Counted from the stretch's first letter, positions 16,656-40,253 are shown. The stretch: 64,000 nucleotides of DNA from Alphaproteobacteria bacterium (GCA_016869435.1 VGEB01000004.1:1-64000), one strand, 5' to 3'. The notes: generated from the letters alone by a model not told the origin. Numbers and translations: made by a program.

Positions 16656-17501
16656 CTACTCGCCGACGAGCCACGCAATCTCAGAGCCGGCGCCCGCGCC
16701 CTGCGCCATTCGTCCAGCGAGAAACGTAAGGAGCGTTCGAGCTTCTTCTTCGAACGTAAATGGGGGATTGACGACGACCATCCCGCACCGTCGCAGCCCT
16801 TCCGCCGTTCCTCCGACGTTCAAAGACAGCCGCAAGATGCGCCGTATGCCGGCGCCCTTCAGCCGATCGTAGAATCGGCGAACCTCATGATCGCTTTTTG
16901 TGGGATGCCACAGCGCGTAAATGCCGGAATTCCATTTGGCGTGGGCCTTCGCGAAGGCGTCAAAGACGGCTTCGAACTCGTCTTCGCGCTCGAACGGCGG
17001 ATCGATCAGAACGAGCCCGCGCCGCTCCTTGGGCGGCGCATAGGCGCCGAGCCCCATATAGCCGTCGATATGAATCGACTTGATCCGCGCGTCACGCGCG
17101 AACCGCCGGCGAAGAGCGGCGAAAGCGTCAGGTCGCAACTCGCAGAAAATCGCGCGATCCTGCGGACGCATCAATTTTTGCGCGATCGCCGGCGAACCCG
17201 GATAGAACGCCGGCCTTCCGTCCTGATCGAGCGGCCCGAGACAATCGAGATAAGGCGCGAGCAGTTCGCGAACCTCCGCGTCCGCGTCGGAGAGATCCGC
17301 GAGACGGCCGACGCCGCCGCGCCATTCGCCGGTGCGCTGCGCTTCATCCGCGGAAAGGTCATAGGCGCCCTCTCCCGCATGCGTGTCGATCACGCGAAAC
17401 GGCGTTTCTTTGCGCGTCAGATAAATCAGAAGGCGCACGACCAGCGAATGTTTGAAGACGTCGGCGAAATTGCCGGCGTGAAACCCGTGGCGATAGTTCA
17501 T
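16656..17501 (-). CDS. rlmJ: 23S rRNA (adenine(2030)-N6)-methyltransferase
   Basis: MNYRHGFHAGNFADVFKHSLVVRLL, IDTHAGEGAYDL, GLVLIDPPFE, GMVVVNPPF. Confidence 0.9.
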   Translation of the reverse strand: MNYRHGFHAGNFADVFKHSLVVRLLIYLTRKETPFRVIDTHAGEGAYDLSADEAQRTGEWRGGVGRLADLSDADAEVRELLAPYLDCLGPLDQDGRPAFYPGSPAIAQKLMRPQDRAIFCELRPDAFAALRRRFARDARIKSIHIDGYMGLGAYAPPKERRGLVLIDPPFEREDEFEAVFDAFAKAHAKWNSGIYALWHPTKSDHEVRRFYDRLKGAGIRRILRLSLNVGGTAEGLRRCGMVVVNPPFTFEEEARTLLTFLAGRMAQGAGAGSEIAWLVGE

Positions 17502-31066: not shown

Positions 31067-32203
31067 TCAGACCGGCAGCGAATGTCGCTCAGCCGCACGA
31101 AACGGCGATTCCAGCGCAAGCACGAGCTTGACCAGATCCGCCTGGCGGGTCGCCCCTGTCTTCAGGAAAATGCTTTTGAGATAGCCCTTGACCGTTCCCT
31201 CGCTGAGACCGAGCGCCCGCGCCGTAGCCGGGACGCCGCCGACCTCAGCGATCGCCAGCAGGACCGAGCCTTCACGGGCGGTCAGGCCGAACAGTTTCGC
31301 GGCGACCGCTCCGCCGTCGTCCGCGTTGAGCTGCAGCCGGCGCAGGAACAGCGCCGAGAGCCCGTTCGCCAGCGGCAGCACGTGCATCACGCAGCAGCGC
31401 GACTCTCCGCGCTTCACCATAATGGCGAAGGCTTCGGCGTCGGCGCCGCCGATGCCGGCGAGCGCGCGCTCCAGGGCCTCTTTGGCGCGCGGATCGCGCA
31501 TGGTCAGCGTATCGCCCGCGACCGCGAAGGCGTCGCCTTCATCGAGAATGTCATCGGCGCTGCGATTCTTTTGAACGATACGCATTTTGGCGTCGACCAC
31601 GAGCACGGGCGTCGTCAGTTCGTCGAACAATTCCACCAGCACGGATGGATCTGAAGCCGGCGTGTGACGTGCGATCGCGCTGGCGAGGTGCGGCAATAGC
31701 GCATCGAGGCGCGCCTTCGCCTGTGCGTCCGCCAAGCCAGCGCGCTCATCGCGAAACGCCACGAACAAACAGACGCCTGTCTCGGATCGGTGAATGACGC
31801 CGACGATCACGTCCAAAAGTCCGAATGGCGCCATCCAGCGTTGATAGGCGCCGCTTTGATGAAACGCCTCAAGCGAAACGAAGTCTTCGGAGGAAAACGC
31901 CCGGCCGACGCCGATCTCGGCCAGCACCCGCGCCTTGACCGGATCGAGTTTGCGATGGTTGCGAAGATATTCGGCGATCCACGCCTTCTCAGCGTGCGTC
32001 GAATATTTGAGCTCGAGCAGCGCCGAAACGCGGTCTCCGAACAGGAGCGCCGCGAAGCGCGCATTCAAGACGCGCGCGATTTCGTCTAACGCGTCCGGCC
32101 AGCAGCGTGCGTCGGCGCCAGCAGCTTCGATAGCCGTGACGACGCGAGCGTTCCCATCTTCCCAAACCGTCATCTCTTCACCCGCTGCGACCTCTCGCCA
32201 CAC
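31067..32203 (-). CDS. LuxR-family HTH transcriptional regulator
   Basis: C-terminal LTAREGSVLLAIAEVGGVPATARALGLSEGTVKGYLKSIFLKTGATRQADLVKLVL; large N-terminal region with no recognised domain. Confidence 0.85.
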   Translation of the reverse strand: MWREVAAGEEMTVWEDGNARVVTAIEAAGADARCWPDALDEIARVLNARFAALLFGDRVSALLELKYSTHAEKAWIAEYLRNHRKLDPVKARVLAEIGVGRAFSSEDFVSLEAFHQSGAYQRWMAPFGLLDVIVGVIHRSETGVCLFVAFRDERAGLADAQAKARLDALLPHLASAIARHTPASDPSVLVELFDELTTPVLVVDAKMRIVQKNRSADDILDEGDAFAVAGDTLTMRDPRAKEALERALAGIGGADAEAFAIMVKRGESRCCVMHVLPLANGLSALFLRRLQLNADDGGAVAAKLFGLTAREGSVLLAIAEVGGVPATARALGLSEGTVKGYLKSIFLKTGATRQADLVKLVLALESPFRAAERHSLPV

Positions 32204-32322
32204 CTTCGCAAAGCGGTTTTTGCGATGGCGCGCGCCGCGCGGCGAGAGGTCGACCTGCTCCGAGCCCTCAGAAAAGCCTGCGAAAACTCAAAGGCGTCAC
32301 TTGTTTTCAACTTAACTTCTGT

Positions 32323-32338
32323 GTTGCCCAACTGCAAC
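32323..32338. promoter_or_regulatory. Palindrome GTTGCCCAACTGCAAC upstream of copper-uptake module 1
   Basis: GTTGC-N6-GCAAC, about 102 nt upstream of the 32441 ATG; matched by a copy at 35479. Confidence 0.6.
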
Positions 32339-32440
32339 AATTGAGACGAATTTAGTCAATGGCCATGCTCAACCTCCCGATCGGGGGGAAAGGATGAGAC
32401 TCGCGACAAGTAAATTACAAAAAAGAATCTAGCGACCGCC

Positions 32441-32839
32441 ATGATGACCGAGAACTCAGCAAAGACGCCGACCGCGAACGCGACATGGAAGTGCCTGCGC
32501 GCCCTTGTTGCTGCGACGCTTTTTGTTGTCTCGGCGCTGTTGCAGGCGACGCTCGCGCCGCACGCGGCTTTGTCCGCGACGCTGGCGTTCTGCGTAGACG
32601 ACCACGCGCCGGCGGATCGGGCGGACGAGAAGACGCCCGCAGGCGCGCCAGCGCTCGGTCACTCGCATTGCCGCGCCTGCCCGATCGCGACGCCGCCGTC
32701 CATTCCCGAAAAGCCGCCCATCGCGTGCGTCGCAGCGCCGCCAATCGCGCTCGTCTACTCCGACGGATGGGGTTTCGAACCGCAAGTGCGACGCCGTCCG
32801 GGCGAGACGCGGTCCCGTGCGCCTCCGTTCTTCTCCTGA
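32441..32839 (+). CDS. DUF2946-like small exported protein (module 1)
   Basis: Single N-terminal TM/signal, HSHCRACP (HCxxC), C-terminal RSRAPPFFS, directly upstream of a TonB receptor. Confidence 0.65.
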   Translation: MMTENSAKTPTANATWKCLRALVAATLFVVSALLQATLAPHAALSATLAFCVDDHAPADRADEKTPAGAPALGHSHCRACPIATPPSIPEKPPIACVAAPPIALVYSDGWGFEPQVRRRPGETRSRAPPFFS

Positions 32840-32899
32840 CGAAACAAAAACTCGCATTGTTTCAACCGCCCCTCGCTGGCGGATCAGGAGATCAGTTCC

Positions 32900-35335
32900 A
32901 TGCCCCCTACCGCTCTTCTGCGCGGCGTGAGCGCCTGCGCCCTCATTCTCGCGTCGCTCGCCGTCGCCAAGGCCCAAGTCTCTCTTCCGCAGATCGTGGT
33001 CGGCGCGCAACGCCCTGCCGCGGCGCCAACCACGCCGCCCTTGGAAAAGGCCGGCGACGAGGCTGTCGTCACACAAAGGGAAATCGTGGAGGAGAAACCT
33101 CCTGAAACGGATACAGCGAAGCTTCTCGAACATCAGCCTGGCGTGAGCGTTCAGACCGGCGGCGGCGTTTCCGGCCTGCCTGCAATTCGAGGCCTCGCCG
33201 ATGATCGCCTGAAGATACTCGTGGGCGGCGTGCAGACGACGGCCACCTGCGCCAATCACATGAATTCGCCGCTGAGCTATACCGATCCGAACACGATCGG
33301 CCGGGTTGAGGTGGTGACCGCGGTGTCGTCAGTGAGCAAAGGCGGCGATTCGATCGGCGGCTCAATCCTCGTCACCCCGAAATCGCCGGTCTTTGCGACT
33401 CCTGTGGTCGCTCCAGCAGTCATCGGTCCCGGCGGCGCGCCAGTTTCCCCAATCGTGGCCGCGAGTCCCTACCCCCCCGTTCCCTATCTTCCGCTTCCGG
33501 TTCCAGGCACGGTTCGTTTTGGCCCGAACAATGAGGTGCTGACGACGGGAACCGTCTCGGCGTTCTTCCGCGGCAATAATAATGGCGTCGGCGTAACAGC
33601 CAACATCAATATGGCTAACGACCATTGGAGCCTGCTCTACAACGGGTCCTGGCAACGTGCGACGAACTATCACGCCGGCGGCAATGGCGACAAAGTTCTC
33701 TCAACGAACTTCATGTCTGAGAACCACGCTGTCACGCTCGGCTATCAGAACGAAGGCCATCTCTTCACCTTCCGCGGCGCTTATCAGAACATTCCCTATC
33801 AGGGCTTTCCGAACCAGCGCATGGATATGACGCGGAATCGCTCCTATTCGCTCGACGCGTATTACAAGGGCGCCTACGAGTGGGGCACGCTGGAGGCGCG
33901 CGCCTATTGGCATCAGGTCTTCCACAAGATGGGATTCCTGGAAGACAGGTTCTGGCTCAATCACCCGATGATCGCGCTCGGCCGCGACTTCGGCTATTCC
34001 ATCAAGACGGAAATTCCATACAGCGAGCAGGATCTTTTCCGGATCGGCAATGAGTTCCACGGCTATCGTCTGCAGGACTACTGGCCGTCCGATCTCACCG
34101 GCTTTACCCAGGGGTTCGCGACGCCTCCCGGCAACTTGAGCCGGCCTTTCGCAAATGTGAACATCAATGGCGGCCAGCGCAATCGCTTCGGCACCTACGC
34201 CGAATGGGAGCGCCGCTGGACGACTCAGTGGTCGAGCCTGATCGGCGTGCGCAACGACGTCGTCTGGATGGACACAGGTCCCGGTCAGAGCTACACGCCG
34301 TTTATTTTTCCCACCACGCCGCTGATCGCGCGTGCGAACAACTTGGCCGTCAATATATTCAACGCGCAAAACCGGGCGCGCACCGACGTCAACTTCGACA
34401 TGACCGCTCTGGGGCGCTACGAACCGGAGCCCGGAACCCTTTACGAGTTCGGCTATTCGCGCAAGACGCGCTCGCCCAATCTCTATGAACGCTATACTTG
34501 GCCGATGGCGGGCCCGTTCACCGCGATGTTCAACTGGTTCGGCGACGGCAACGGCTACACTGGCAATCTCAATCTCAAGCCGGAAGTCGCGCACAATGTC
34601 GCATTCACCGGCGCGTGGCGCGACATGTCGGGCGCCAATAATTGGGAAGCGCGGATATCGCCCTTCTATACTTACGTTGAGAATTACATCGACGGCGCCA
34701 GAACCGGCGGGACCTTCAACACGTTCCCCGTGGCGAACTCCTATATTTTCCAGATCATGCAGTTCCGCAATTTCAAGGCGGAGCTGTATGGCGTCGACGG
34801 CTCGGGCAGAGTGAAGCTGCATGAGTCGCCGGAGTATGGCAGGCTGCAGGCGGTCGGCGTCGTCAGTTTCGTCTACGGACGAAATCTCGACATCGGCAAT
34901 CCGCAATATTGTCTGCCCGGCAATGGATTTTGCTCGGTCGCGTCCTTCCTGATCAAGAAAGGCGATGGTCTGTGGAACCTGATGCCGGCCAATGCGCGCA
35001 TCGCGCTTGAGCATCAGCTCGGCGGATTGAGCCTGGCCGCCGAAACGCAGCTTGTCGCGCCCAAGGACCATGTTTCCGCCAACAAGGGCGAATTCACCAC
35101 GCCTGCTTACGCGCTCCTCAATCTGCGCGCCGCCTATGAGTGGAGCAATATGCGGATCGACCTTGGCGTCGACAATCTCACCAATGCGCTCTACTCGCTG
35201 CCGCTTGGCGGATTCGATCTGACGAACTATTCCCGCAACGCGTTCGTCTTCGGACGAAATGTCGGCCTTGCGAGCGTGCGTCAGGTGCCTGGAATGGGCC
35301 GCAACTTTTACGCGGGCCTCACGGTGAAGTTCTGA
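32900..35335 (+). CDS. TonB-dependent receptor, OprC/NosA-like, putative copper receptor (module 1)
   Basis: Signal peptide, plug motifs (KLLEHQPGVSVQTGGGVSGLPAIRGLADDRLKILVGG), C-terminal beta-barrel ending GRNFYAGLTVKF; CANHM (CxxxM) and HKM (HxM). Confidence 0.9.
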   Translation: MPPTALLRGVSACALILASLAVAKAQVSLPQIVVGAQRPAAAPTTPPLEKAGDEAVVTQREIVEEKPPETDTAKLLEHQPGVSVQTGGGVSGLPAIRGLADDRLKILVGGVQTTATCANHMNSPLSYTDPNTIGRVEVVTAVSSVSKGGDSIGGSILVTPKSPVFATPVVAPAVIGPGGAPVSPIVAASPYPPVPYLPLPVPGTVRFGPNNEVLTTGTVSAFFRGNNNGVGVTANINMANDHWSLLYNGSWQRATNYHAGGNGDKVLSTNFMSENHAVTLGYQNEGHLFTFRGAYQNIPYQGFPNQRMDMTRNRSYSLDAYYKGAYEWGTLEARAYWHQVFHKMGFLEDRFWLNHPMIALGRDFGYSIKTEIPYSEQDLFRIGNEFHGYRLQDYWPSDLTGFTQGFATPPGNLSRPFANVNINGGQRNRFGTYAEWERRWTTQWSSLIGVRNDVVWMDTGPGQSYTPFIFPTTPLIARANNLAVNIFNAQNRARTDVNFDMTALGRYEPEPGTLYEFGYSRKTRSPNLYERYTWPMAGPFTAMFNWFGDGNGYTGNLNLKPEVAHNVAFTGAWRDMSGANNWEARISPFYTYVENYIDGARTGGTFNTFPVANSYIFQIMQFRNFKAELYGVDGSGRVKLHESPEYGRLQAVGVVSFVYGRNLDIGNPQYCLPGNGFCSVASFLIKKGDGLWNLMPANARIALEHQLGGLSLAAETQLVAPKDHVSANKGEFTTPAYALLNLRAAYEWSNMRIDLGVDNLTNALYSLPLGGFDLTNYSRNAFVFGRNVGLASVRQVPGMGRNFYAGLTVKF

Positions 35336-35478
35336 TCGCGGCGCGCTAATGTGGAAGGCGGCGCGCCAATGCGCCGCCTCTCATTCTGATGTTCCGATTC
35401 TGCTGCGTCTCGCGCCTGTCGGTTTGCGCCGCGCGCTCGCCGCTTCTCTTCGATGCACGCGCGCGGTGGCGCCATTAT

Positions 35479-35494
35479 GTTGCTCAATTGCAAC
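35479..35494. promoter_or_regulatory. Palindrome GTTGCTCAATTGCAAC upstream of copper-uptake module 2
   Basis: Same GTTGC-N6-GCAAC architecture, about 97 nt upstream of the 35592 ATG. Confidence 0.6.
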
Positions 35495-35591
35495 AAATCC
35501 AATAATTTGCTCAAGAACTGGGCGAGCTCACTTCCGATATCAAAAAAAGATAGTAACAAGTTCGTTACACGGAATTGGATTCTCCAGCGCC

Positions 35592-35972
35592 ATGTCAGCG
35601 AAAGCAGAACGGAAAGACTGCAAGCGAAGCGGCGCCCGCGCTGTCCTCGCATTGGCGCTTTTCTGCCTTTCCGCCGCGTTGCAGGCGACGATCGCGCCGC
35701 GCATGGCGTTCGCGGCGTCAGATGAATTCTGCGTCGATAACGTCGGCGCCGCCGATCCGCAGCCCCCGAGTCAATCGCCGACGCACGCCTCGGACGCGCA
35801 TTGCAGTGTTTGCACGACCGCGGCCGCGCCCATCATCCTCGGTAGACTACCGGTCGCGCGCCTTGAGCGATGGTCGACTGCGCTGGTCTACCTCGACACA
35901 TGGCCTAGCGAAGCGCGAGAACGACGCCGTTCCGGCGAAGCGCGCTCACGCGCGCCCCCCTTTCTCTCCTGA
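35592..35972 (+). CDS. DUF2946-like small exported protein (module 2)
   Basis: N-terminal hydrophobic segment, DAHCSVCTTA (HCxxC), C-terminal RSRAPPFLS; paralog of 32441..32839. Confidence 0.65.
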   Translation: MSAKAERKDCKRSGARAVLALALFCLSAALQATIAPRMAFAASDEFCVDNVGAADPQPPSQSPTHASDAHCSVCTTAAAPIILGRLPVARLERWSTALVYLDTWPSEARERRRSGEARSRAPPFLS

Positions 35973-37437
35973 CGAAACAAGAACTCGCGCTGTTTCAACC
36001 GCCGCTCGCCGCGGTTCAGGAGATCTCATACAATGCAACATACCGCTCTACTGCGCGGCGCAAGCGCCTGCGCGCTGGTTCTCGCGTCGCTCGCAAGCGC
36101 CGAGGCCCAGGTCGCTCTCCCCCAGATCGTCATAGGCGCGCCGCATCGCCCTGCGGCGCCGACCGCGCCGCCACCGACTCCGCCCACGCCGGAAAAGGCC
36201 GGCGACGCGGCCGTGGTCACGCAAAAGGAAATCGACAAGGAAAGGCCCGCTGTCGCCGACACGACGAAGCTCCTCGAAAACACCCCCGGCGTCAGTATGT
36301 ACGAGGCCGGCGGCGTTTCGCGCCTGCCGGCGATTCACGGCATGGCCGACGATCGGCTAAAAATCATCGTGGGCGGCGTGCAGCCGACCGCAGCGTGCGC
36401 CAACCACATGAATCCCCCGCTCTCCTATATTGATCCCAATAACGTGCAGAGAATCGAAGTCTTTTCGGGCGTGATGCCCGTCAGCAGAGGCGGCGATTCG
36501 ATCGGCGGTTCGATCATCGTGACGCCGCGACAGCCCGCCTTCGCGCCGCCCCCAGGCGCGCCGCTGCCGCCGCCCGCCGTGGCGCCGGTTGAACCATTCC
36601 TGCTCGGCTCGCCATACCCGCCGTTCCTGCCCTTTACCGGTCAGGGCTTGCGCTTCGGCAATCAGAACGAGTTGCTTGCGACCGGCGTCGTCTCGGCCTT
36701 CTTCCGTACAAACAATAACGGCATCAGCGTTTCCGGCACGACGAATGTCGCGACCGACCATTGGAGCGTGCTCTACAACGGCGCCTGGTCTCGCGCGACC
36801 GACTATCATCAGGGCGACAACGGACCGAAAGTGCTGTCAACAAATTTTATTTCGGAACAGCACTCGCTCACCGGCGCGTATCAGAATAACGGGCATCTCT
36901 TCACGATCAGGGGCGCTGTAGAGCATATCCCCTATCAGGGATTTCCCAATCAACGCATGGATATGACGGGCAATCGCGGCTACACCGCGGAAGCCAAGTA
37001 TCTGGGAGCCTACGACTGGGGCCTCGTGGACGCGCGCGCCTTTTGGCATCACGTCACCCATACGATGGGCTTCCTCTACGACAAGCAGCCAGCGAACATG
37101 CCGATGAACACCATCGCGCATGATTTCGGCTACTCAATCAAGACTGAGATTCCCTTCACCCAGCTCTCCGGTCACGACTTGTTGCGGCTTGGCAGCGAGT
37201 ACCACGGTTTTCGCCTCAAGGACTGGTGGGAGCCGGTGTACAGCTCGACCATGATGATGATGGGCCCGTTCACCTACTGGAACATCAATAACGGCGACCG
37301 TAATCACGTGGGCCACTATGCGGAGTGGGAGGCCGCTTGGACGCCGCAATGGTCGACGCTTCTCGGCGTGCGCAATGACGTCGTGTGGATGACGACAGGC
37401 AACGCCTATCCTTACGATCCGCGCAGCTCCATTCCAA

Positions 37438-37510
37438 TGGGCATGATGGGCGGCATGGGCGGCGGCATGGGCGGCGGCATGGGCGGCATGGGGATGATGA
37501 TGTACATGGC
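37438..37510 (+). repeat. ATGGGCGGC-type tandem repeat encoding a Met/Gly-rich segment
   Basis: ggcatgatgggcggcatgggcggcggcatgggcggcggcatgggcggcatggggatgatgatg, encoding MGMMGGMGGGMGGGMGGMGMMMYM. Confidence 0.9.
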
Positions 37511-37851
37511 GAACCCCGATGCGACTGCCGCGCAAATCTTCAATGCTCGCAATCACGCCCGCACGGACGTAAATTTTGACATGGTTGCAAGGGCCCGTTA
37601 CCAACCTGACGCCGTCAGCACGTACGAGGTCGGCTATTCGCGCAAGACCCGCTCGCCCAATCTTTATGAGCGGTACGCGTGGGGCGTCGGATCGATGGCG
37701 ACCGCCATGGTCAATTGGTTCGGCGACCTCAACGGCTACACAGGCAATCTCGACCTGAAGCCGGAAGTTGCGCACACGGTTGGCATTGTCGGCTCTTGGA
37801 TCGATCCTGCGGGAAATTGGGAAGCCAGAGTCAATCCGTATTACAGCTATA

Positions 37852-38989
37852 CCCCGACTCATTGGAAAGGCGAAGAAATCGGTTGCCGGCGGGCGGATAA
37901 TGGATTCGTCTAAAGGGCATGATTCGTTCTGGCTATCTTTCGCCCGAGGATCGCGCCGACCTGATCGCCCTTGTGCGTGACGGCTCTGCGGCGCATCGCT
38001 TGGCGCGCCGCGCCAATGCTCTCGTGCTGCTGGATGACGGTTGGAGCTGCGAGCAGGTCGCCGCGGCGCTGTTTGTCGACGATGACACAGTCCGGCGCTG
38101 GCATGCATTGTTTTTGGAGGATGGGCTCGAAGGCTTAACGCGCTTTGATAGCGGCGGCGGCGCCTCGCGCTTGTCGAAGATGCAGGAAGCGGCGCTGACG
38201 TCCTGGATATCTGAAAGCTTACCTCCTTCGACGCGTCAGATTGGCGCGTATATCGAGAAGGAATGCGGTGTCGTTTACGAGAGCCGCTCCGGCCTCATCG
38301 CTCTCCTGCATCGGCTTGGGCTCGAATACAGGAAGCCGGAAGCGATCGGACGCAAGCCTGATGCGGAAAAGCAGAAAGCCTTCATCGAAGCCTACGAGAA
38401 TCTTCTGAACGCGCTTGGCCCTGACGAGGCCGTGATGTTCATGGACGCCGTGCATCCGACGCATGCGACGCGTCCCGCCGGTTGCTGGGCGCCGGCCAAG
38501 GAAAATCTGGCCATTGAGCAAACCAGCGGGCGGCAACGTCTTAATGTTCATGGCGCGATCGACCTCGAGACTGGCAAGACCAGAATGGTCGACGTCGAAA
38601 CCGTCGACGCGGTGTCAACGATCAGGCTTCTGCAAGCGATCGAGTCGATGTATCCGCTGATGGCAATGATCCATGTCTTCCTGGACAATGCACGCTATCA
38701 CCATGCCGTTCTGGTGCAAGAGTGGTTGGCGGAGCCGGGCAGACGCATCAAGTTGCACTTCATTCCCGCTTATTGCCCGCATTTGAACCCGATTGAGCGG
38801 CTATGGGGTGTCATGCACAAGCATCTGACGCACAACAAATGCTACGCCACATACAGGGAGTTCGCCGAAGCGACATTGGGATTTCTACGTGAAACCGTTC
38901 CAATCCGCTGGTTCGAGTTTCGCGATTCCGTCACCGACAACTTCCGCGTCATCGATCCGAAGGATTTTCGGGTTCTGACGTGAACTGGG
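37852..38989 (+). mobile_element. IS630-family insertion element (approximate ends)
   Basis: Surrounds the 37919..38983 transposase; ends CCCCGACTC.../...ACTGGG flanked by TA on both sides; terminal inverted repeats are weak, so ends are provisional. Confidence 0.65.
37919..38983 (+). CDS. IS630-family transposase (DDE)
   Basis: N-terminal HTH (GWSCEQVAAALFVDDDTVRRWHALF), FMDAVHPTH, VFLDNARYHHA, HFIPAYCPHLNPIERLWGVMHK. Confidence 0.93.
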   Translation: MIRSGYLSPEDRADLIALVRDGSAAHRLARRANALVLLDDGWSCEQVAAALFVDDDTVRRWHALFLEDGLEGLTRFDSGGGASRLSKMQEAALTSWISESLPPSTRQIGAYIEKECGVVYESRSGLIALLHRLGLEYRKPEAIGRKPDAEKQKAFIEAYENLLNALGPDEAVMFMDAVHPTHATRPAGCWAPAKENLAIEQTSGRQRLNVHGAIDLETGKTRMVDVETVDAVSTIRLLQAIESMYPLMAMIHVFLDNARYHHAVLVQEWLAEPGRRIKLHFIPAYCPHLNPIERLWGVMHKHLTHNKCYATYREFAEATLGFLRETVPIRWFEFRDSVTDNFRVIDPKDFRVLT

Positions 38990-39680
38990 TATACATCGAA
39001 AATTTCATAGACGCTGATCGCGTGAGCAATCTCTCGGGACCGGCTGGACTCATCTTTCCCATACTACAGTTCCGCAACCATAAAGCGGAAATCTACGGCT
39101 TCGACGTTTCCGGCCGCCTGAAGCTTTGGGAAACGCCAGAATACGGTCTGTTTTCCACCACTGGCTTTATCAGCTACGTCTATGGCAAGGACCTCGACAT
39201 GCCCAATTACACGGCCTGCGGTCTGTCCGGCGCCACATGCTATCTGCTGGCGCAGAACTTCGCCAAGGGAGACGGGCTGTATCATATCATGCCATTGACC
39301 GCGCGCGGCGCCATCGAACACCGTTTGGGCGGATGGACGAGCGCCGTCGAGTTGCAGCTGGTCGACAGCAAGACGCATGTTTCCGTCGCCCGCAACGAAT
39401 TGAAGACGGGCGGGTATGCGCTGGTCAATTTGAGAACCGCCTACGACTGGGGAACGATGCGCTTCGATCTCGCGATCGAAAACCTGTTCGACCAGCTCTA
39501 CTATCCACCCCTCGGTGGCCATTATTTCACTTTGGCGAAGGTCACCAACAATCCACTCACCTACGGGCCGGTGCCGGGGATCGGCCGCAACTTTATCGCC
39601 GGCCTTACGGTTCGGTTTTGACCGCACGCCGCTTCCAGGAGAGACGCGTATGCGCGTCTCTCCTCATTGGAGAGTGTTTT

Positions 39681-40253
39681 GTGAAACGTCTCTTCGTTCC
39701 CTTGGCGCTATCGGCGCTTTGCGCCGTACTCGCCTCGGCGCAAGCCGAAATCATCGGCGCGCAAACGCCTCGCACGGCGACGGAGGACCAAATGAAGGCC
39801 TCCCTGCGCGAGATCGACCTCGTTGGCGCGAATGGCGCGGCTCTCGACTTGCGTGCGCTGATGGCGAGCGGACGACCGACGCTCATCAGCCTTTGGGCCT
39901 ATTGGTGCCCGAATTGTCTCGCCGAAATGAAAGGCTTCAAGGCGATCGCCGCGGCCTGCCCGGATCGCTGGAACATCGTCTTCGTCTCGGCGCGCGCCAG
40001 CGACTACGCCAAGGACGCCGCGAAGTTCAAGACTTACGGTCTACCCTGGAAGATCTTCCGCGTCGGCGACTCAACGAAAACCGACGTGGCGAAAGCAAAA
40101 AGCGCGCGCGCCTTCTACGGCGCGACGGCCGGCGGCGACGTGGTCACGCCACTTCACTATCTGGTCGGCGCTTCCGGACGGGTCGACGCAATCGTCAACG
40201 GCAAGCTGAACTTCGAGGAGCCCCAACGCCTAGCCGCCTTCTGCGCCGACTGA
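39681..40253 (+). CDS. TlpA-like thioredoxin-fold exported protein
   Basis: GTG start at 39681; signal peptide; TLISLWAYWCPNCLAEMKGF (WCxxC). Confidence 0.8.
   Translation: MKRLFVPLALSALCAVLASAQAEIIGAQTPRTATEDQMKASLREIDLVGANGAALDLRALMASGRPTLISLWAYWCPNCLAEMKGFKAIAAACPDRWNIVFVSARASDYAKDAAKFKTYGLPWKIFRVGDSTKTDVAKAKSARAFYGATAGGDVVTPLHYLVGASGRVDAIVNGKLNFEEPQRLAAFCAD

Follow-up and report, generated by a model that had tools for sequence, protein, structure and literature searches.

A putative CruR-headed copper-uptake locus carrying two OprC-like receptor modules in a Methylocystis-like genome, with a proposed stop-codon switch

What system is encoded at positions 31067 to 40253 of a 64,000-nucleotide stretch of alphaproteobacterial DNA (GCA_016869435.1 VGEB01000004.1:1-64000; the whole stretch is here called the window), and how might its TonB-dependent receptors be controlled? 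A sequence-only reading had seen a tandemly duplicated copper-uptake locus but could not name the system. All the genes it listed are present, namely a LuxR-type regulator, small HCxxC open reading frames (ORFs), TonB receptors and a WCPNC thioredoxin-like protein, and a name can be given: this is a CruR-headed operon, of a kind published in 2022 (PMC9426467). On sequence grounds copper uptake is well supported as the function and the copper-import locus appears real and functional-looking. A CruR operon with an OprC-like receptor is known; what appears new is a variant of the switch and an unusual arrangement of two receptor alleles, one of them broken. The account that we favour, and judge likely, is a pair of copper-scavenging modules in which a CruR-sensed switch would occlude the Shine-Dalgarno (SD) sequence of an OprC-like copper receptor. 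The motifs, pairing potential, conservation, receptor clades and insertion described below are read directly from the sequence. The main features of the first module, and those that match them in the second, are as follows.

32441 to 32839, plus strand: cruR1, CruR/DUF2946 copper arrest-peptide upstream ORF (uORF) of 132 residues, assigned from CxxC, 45 residues, RAPP, FFS and stop
32669 to 32680, plus strand: codons of the cruR1 copper motif CRAC, from sequence, with a spacing of 45 like that of B. pertussis CruR
32816 to 32827, plus strand: codons of the cruR1 arrest motif RAPP, from sequence
32832 to 32839, plus strand: anti-SD UCUCCUGA, the last serine and stop codons of cruR1, SD pairing probability 0.98
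32841 to 32863, plus strand: hairpin 1, GAAACAA...UUGUUUC, after cruR1, from the minimum free energy (MFE) structure
32866 to 32882, plus strand: hairpin 2, CCGCC...GGCGG, from the MFE structure; CCCGC...GCGGG instead in loci L018 and L019
32884 to 32891, plus strand: SD of receptor 1, UCAGGAGA, exact complement of the anti-SD
32900 to 35335, plus strand: receptor 1, intact OprC-like TonB-dependent transporter (TBDT) of type 1 with Met-poor loops, from its ligands and OprC sequence and fold matches
35592 to 35972, plus strand: cruR2, second CruR uORF, 126 residues, assigned from CxxC, 45 residues, RAPP, FLS and stop
35802 to 35813, plus strand: codons of the cruR2 copper motif CSVC, from sequence
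35949 to 35960, plus strand: codons of the cruR2 arrest motif RAPP, from sequence
35965 to 35972, plus strand: anti-SD UCUCCUGA ending cruR2, SD pairing probability 0.98
36016 to 36023, plus strand: SD of receptor 2, UCAGGAGA, predicted to pair with the anti-SD

Each cruR encodes CxxC, exactly 45 residues, RAPP, three residues and a stop, and the spacing from CxxC to RAPP is 45 to 47 in all Methylocystis receptor loci. The DUF2946 family (Pfam PF11162) scores the first ORF at 19.2 bits and the second at 23.7 bits, with a gathering cut-off of 23.7; since these scores are weak it is the motifs and the context that carry the assignment. The defining motifs, on the other hand, are firm, and the DUF2946 likeness reported earlier for the two small ORFs survives on that basis. 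A copper-related gene, the OprC-like TBDT, lies next to each cruR in both modules and in their relatives. Judged by sequence, both ORFs are CruR-type copper arrest peptides. In Bordetella pertussis, mutants of CruR reveal that repression by copper requires CxxC and that copper-free expression requires RAPP; bfrG is turned off by copper in a Rho-dependent manner, with a spacer of 162 nucleotides, and operons containing OprC-type TBDTs and AhpC/TSA genes are stated to begin with CruR homologues (PMC9426467). In vitro toeprints show the ribosome arrested with its P site on the third RAPP codon and its A site on the fourth (PMC12992588). The CruR-bfrG(crtA)-bp2921 operon and the modules studied here share a leading DUF2946 uORF, the CxxC-45-RAPP arrangement and a TonB receptor in second place (PMC9426467). 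They differ in that the receptor here is OprC-like rather than CrtA, the third gene encodes a TlpA-like protein and not PepSY_TM, the spacer is 60 rather than 162 nucleotides and includes a stop-codon anti-SD and a three-way junction, and there are two modules and a divergent LuxR gene with a dyad.

How could such a peptide govern the gene that follows? In both modules the receptor SD has its reverse complement in the final cruR codons, ...UC UCC UGA. Both spacers have as their MFE structure a three-way junction formed by an anti-SD/SD outer stem, a GAAAC...GUUUC hairpin and a G+C hairpin, and the ensemble probability that the SD pairs with the end of cruR is 0.98 in modules 1 and 2. The spacer is too uniform in close relatives for covariation, and pairing probabilities were compared with controls in its place. 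Pairing is at least 0.82 in all 27 Methylocystis loci, which represent six cruR sequence clusters and spacers of 57 to 85 nucleotides, against a mean of 0.15 for control windows inside the same genes. Ordinary same-strand gene pairs, drawn from individually retrieved loci, exceed 0.5 in four cases out of 95 and 0.9 in none. For 78 clusters of the wider family, where start sites were predicted by a simple rule that adds noise, the mean is 0.33 compared with 0.16 in controls (Wilcoxon p=0.0046). Values above 0.5 occur in 35% of these clusters and 13% of controls, from which anti-SD pairing seems common to a subset of the wider family. All the Methylocystis receptor loci seen end cruR with Ser-TCC, a codon that accounts for 18.9% of serine codons in the window genes, and the two preceding residues differ between loci. 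A search of Rfam with this region found no known element, only a single small RNA match at chance level (E=0.79), and we found no description of a stop-codon anti-SD in the CruR/DUF2946 family in a literature search that was thin on subscription journals.

Other CruR-like sequences were noted in passing. A separate CruR cluster from another family of the same order (L102, L118, L119, L174, L178 and L181) has the Ser-TCC-TGA ending as well; it is complementary to the SD that follows (TCAGGA), with pairing of 0.69 to 0.93. The genome from which the window derives holds two further CruR-like loci, one with two cruRs in tandem (L001, contig C161) and one with a single cruR (L002, contig C147), where the downstream genes include, by eye, an apparent TonB C-terminal protein.

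What do the receptors take up? Searched against the PDB, a profile of 23 relatives has OprC as its top match (E=5e-33), and the predicted receptor structure (mean predicted local distance difference test, pLDDT, 71) matches 28 OprC chains better than any other receptor. Residues C117, M121, H342 and M344 of receptor 1 align with C143, M147, H323 and M325 of OprC, the ligands of its copper site (PMC8610252). All four, a CxxxM in the plug and an HxM in the barrel, are invariant in 52 of 52 homologues. The copper uptake proposed in the sequence-only reading is thereby strengthened, with OprC the best match in sequence and fold and its four copper ligands invariant. The likeness to the OprC/NosA copper TBDT of Pseudomonas (PMC8610252) thus lies in the aligned CxxxM-HxM ligands and the top sequence and fold match; the differences are an identity of 17% in the fold alignment, a score below the TIGR01778 cut-off and, in type-1 receptors, the lack of Met-rich loops.

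The two allele types differ in these loops. Two Met-rich loops, SMMMGP and MGMMGGMGG..., occur in receptors of type 2 and in the outgroups (window 36033 to 37854, L023 to L032 and L050 to L057), while the type-1 clade, including the intact receptor 1, has none to two Met at the same sites. Following the methionine-track idea of the OprC paper, Met-rich and Met-poor loops may mean different forms of copper. Both TonB receptors of the earlier description are present, at 32900 to 35335 and at 36033 to 39621, the second split by a transposase of which a single copy was found in the genome.

35357 to 35379, plus strand: type-1 hairpin spacer after receptor 1, like the spacer of single-module type-1 loci
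36033 to 37854, plus strand: 5' part of receptor 2, type 2 with Met-rich loops, in a clade with L023 and L024, support 100/100
37919 to 38983, plus strand: IS630-family transposase inside receptor 2, NF033545 at 205 bits
38985 to 39621, plus strand: 3' part of receptor 2, TonB barrel

Receptors 1 and 2 are approximately 58% identical and fall in separate clades, each with 100/100 support, which rules out a recent duplication. The 'tandemly duplicated' label is therefore half right: there are tandem modules, with direct repeats of 70 to 79% nucleotide identity across them, but they are old alleles or paralogues and not copies. Other Methylocystis have one module at the HSP20-LuxR-cruR-TBDT-TlpA-hydrolase site, mostly of type 1, with type 2 in L023 and L024. 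Here the Met-poor type-1 module comes first, followed by the Met-rich type-2 module that the IS630 element breaks. The spacer after receptor 1 resembles type 1, the one that follows receptor 2 resembles type 2, as does the beginning of tlpA, and L023 and L024 carry a type-1-like cruR upstream of a type-2 receptor. The clades, the spacers and this pairing of cruR and receptor suggest that receptor alleles have been exchanged at the site and that the window holds two together; the tandem would have arisen when a type-1 module joined a type-2 locus. Because the insertion breaks receptor 2, only module 1 should import copper now. Receptor loss recurs in another species, where an in-frame TGA breaks the type-1 receptor gene (L020/L046).

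Transcription may have its own control. The divergent LuxR-type regulator reported at the start of the locus is there, with a GerE/LuxR helix-turn-helix (Pfam 25.8 bits, cut-off 23.5), and the upstream and spacer elements said to be shared are likewise found in both modules, as an 18-base-pair dyad and a hairpin region after cruR.

31067 to 32203, minus strand: LuxR/GerE-family regulator (Pfam GerE), divergent from the receptor operon
32322 to 32339, no strand: 18-base-pair dyad TGTTGC-CCAACT-GCAACA, candidate LuxR operator, from exact genome matches and conservation
32373 to 32389, no strand: second conserved element CCTCCCGATCGGGGGGA, in module 1 only, near-invariant across LuxR-type loci
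35478 to 35495, no strand: 18-base-pair dyad TGTTGC-TCAATT-GCAACA upstream of module 2, exact genome match

The dyad, TGTTGC-N6-GCAACA, lies about 100 nucleotides upstream of each cruR and these are its only two exact matches in the 3.16-Mb genome. Loci with an adjacent LuxR gene have it too, slightly altered, and those that lack one do not; LuxR adjoins the receptor module in the window and in most Methylocystis loci with related TBDTs. The regulator and shared elements are, as judged from these loci, conserved in the genus, and the divergent LuxR probably controls both modules at the level of transcription by way of the dyad. The papers found do not describe LuxR or these shared elements.

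We infer arrest, the copper response, the direction of regulation, LuxR binding and transport, and would combine them thus. In each module cruR would be translated as a copper sensor. At low copper the ribosome would arrest at RAPP, occupy the final UCUCC(UGA) and block pairing of anti-SD and SD, and receptor would be made. Of the last 12 nucleotides of cruR, the arrested ribosome would sit over about the first 10 and so hide the anti-SD; masking 10 nucleotides in silico as its footprint lowers SD pairing from 0.98 to 0.63 in module 1 and 0.38 in module 2. Copper bound to the nascent CxxC would relieve the arrest and the ribosome would depart, after which the freed stop-codon anti-SD would close the three-way junction over the SD and end receptor translation. 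The untranslated RNA would then be a natural target for Rho. The data suggest a SecM/CutF-like occlusion switch instead of, or on top of, Rho attenuation of the B. pertussis type. As in SecM-secA of E. coli (described in PMC9973294), a RAPP-like arrest near the C-terminus would unmask the next SD, although the signal here would be copper and that of SecM is export status. As in CutF-cutO of Rhodobacter capsulatus (PMC9973294), a DUF2946-like nascent sensor is combined with an RNA stem covering the SD of the next gene; CutF, however, carries CxxxC, and with copper it turns ON the multicopper oxidase that it controls. In the modules here it is the uORF's own end that forms the anti-SD, and copper is predicted to turn the switch OFF.

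Several observations weigh against this account. The published CruR regulation is Rho-dependent (PMC9426467) and both cruRs contain a stretch richer in C than G (32623 to 32753 and 35722 to 35800). Arrest in silico frees the module 1 SD only in part; swapping serine codons in silico often keeps pairing at 0.75 or more, making the choice of final codon moderate evidence only; about one third of the wider-family clusters show pairing; and the P1 pairs are near-invariant in close relatives, with little compensatory change to count. The receptor misses the TIGR01778 equivalog cut-off (70.9 compared with 472.45 bits), which rules out OprC equivalog status and leaves it as OprC-like only. About one background copy of the dyad per genome elsewhere in the genus weakens any idea that it is wholly unique. 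Could Rho, then, be sufficient, with the same operon attenuated only as in B. pertussis and the SD pairing incidental? Rho dependence has been demonstrated for CruR-bfrG (PMC9426467) and the C-rich, G-poor stretches would suit it, such that Rho might act as a second layer. As the sole mechanism we consider it unlikely: the spacers are 60 and not 162 nucleotides, and the exact complement of stop codon and SD is kept in 27 of 27 Methylocystis loci whose spacers are unlike one another, against only four of 95 ordinary gene pairs with pairing above 0.5. The reverse logic, in which copper strengthens arrest and turns the downstream gene ON, has a precedent in R. capsulatus CutF, which is DUF2946-like and has a stem-loop shielding the cutO SD (PMC9973294). 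We regard it as highly improbable in this locus. The CutF motif is CxxxC and the oxidase under its control serves detoxification, whereas CxxC and RAPP spaced by 45 with a TBDT indicate CruR, OFF with copper, and a copper importer switched ON by copper makes little sense. Membership of the CutF type was rejected as the window has CxxC with a TBDT next, not CxxxC with cutO.

The cargo and the tandem itself also invite other explanations. The receptor might import chelated copper or another ligand, such as a chalkophore or foreign methanobactin, with types 1 and 2 as ligand-specific alleles. In its favour, the Met-rich loops retained by type 2 and the outgroups have been lost from type-1 receptors, receptors have been exchanged between species while the resident cruR stayed in place, and CrtA takes up chelated copper (PMC12914433); set against this, the ligands of the OprC-type site for the naked ion are all invariant in both types, and we find the proposal rather doubtful. 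A chimeric assembly, in which two strains of a metagenome bin were joined to give the tandem, appears quite improbable. In its favour, the assembly is in 209 contigs, most of its close kin are metagenome assemblies, and the tandem was absent from every other Methylocystis genome searched. Against a misjoin, type-2 modules elsewhere follow a LuxR region that the joining DNA at 35336 to 35478 does not resemble, which leaves no shared stretch to explain one.

The setting is that of a methanotroph. The host genome is Methylocystis-like, and the nearest related loci belong to Methylocystis rosea, Methylocystis sp. and related metagenome bins. From 31067 the gene order is divergent LuxR, cruR1, receptor 1, cruR2, split receptor 2 and a TlpA/redoxin-like gene. 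The gene set is conserved elsewhere, since the Methylocystis site HSP20-LuxR-cruR-TBDT-TlpA holds one such module.

39681 to 40253, plus strand: TlpA/redoxin-like periplasmic protein with WCPNC, Redoxin at 24.5 bits, under the curated cut-off of 26.6

A methanobactin (mbn) locus was considered and set aside, there being no mbn genes nearby and the flanks consisting of HSP20, LuxR, TlpA and a hydrolase. A plasmid origin was also discarded, as plasmid-borne relatives are all below 60% identity. Elsewhere in the window, at 16992 to 17066, is a tRNA-Leu with anticodon AAG, which is unusual in bacteria.

Known methanotroph copper uptake is centred on methanobactin. The locus offers a concrete candidate for copper import in Methylocystis by another route, and the proposed switch would join two published DUF2946 mechanisms, CruR and CutF, so far treated as different. 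The exchange of receptor alleles, with Met-rich loops lost in one, would provide a natural experiment on the role of the loops. More tentatively, many CruR-family leaders beyond CutF might use their own last codons and stop as an anti-SD, and methanotrophs might do so for copper import and, by way of a related leader, for a singleton pmoC, making nascent-peptide copper sensing a part of methanotroph copper control.

The pmoC case comes from a side observation. A DUF2946-like RAPP leader (...PQSPRAPP...) lies approximately 130 to 205 nucleotides upstream of pmoC in more than 20 Methylocystis genomes, that of the host included.

L200 (G000 contig C132), 1759 to 2172 and 849 to 1610, both minus strand: pmoC leader and pmoC; also G000:C1:28537-28929 and L203 to L226

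It may be a copper leader that governs a subunit of methane monooxygenase; we found no paper on a RAPP leader upstream of pmoC. In the five neighbourhoods read this pmoC is a singleton, not part of a pmoCAB operon, and the main pmoCAB (particulate methane monooxygenase, pMMO) operon was accordingly dismissed as the target of the second leader. The same contig encodes a Cys-rich protein of 113 residues (L200, 5322 to 5663, minus strand) that by eye has the look of a Csp-like copper-storage protein.

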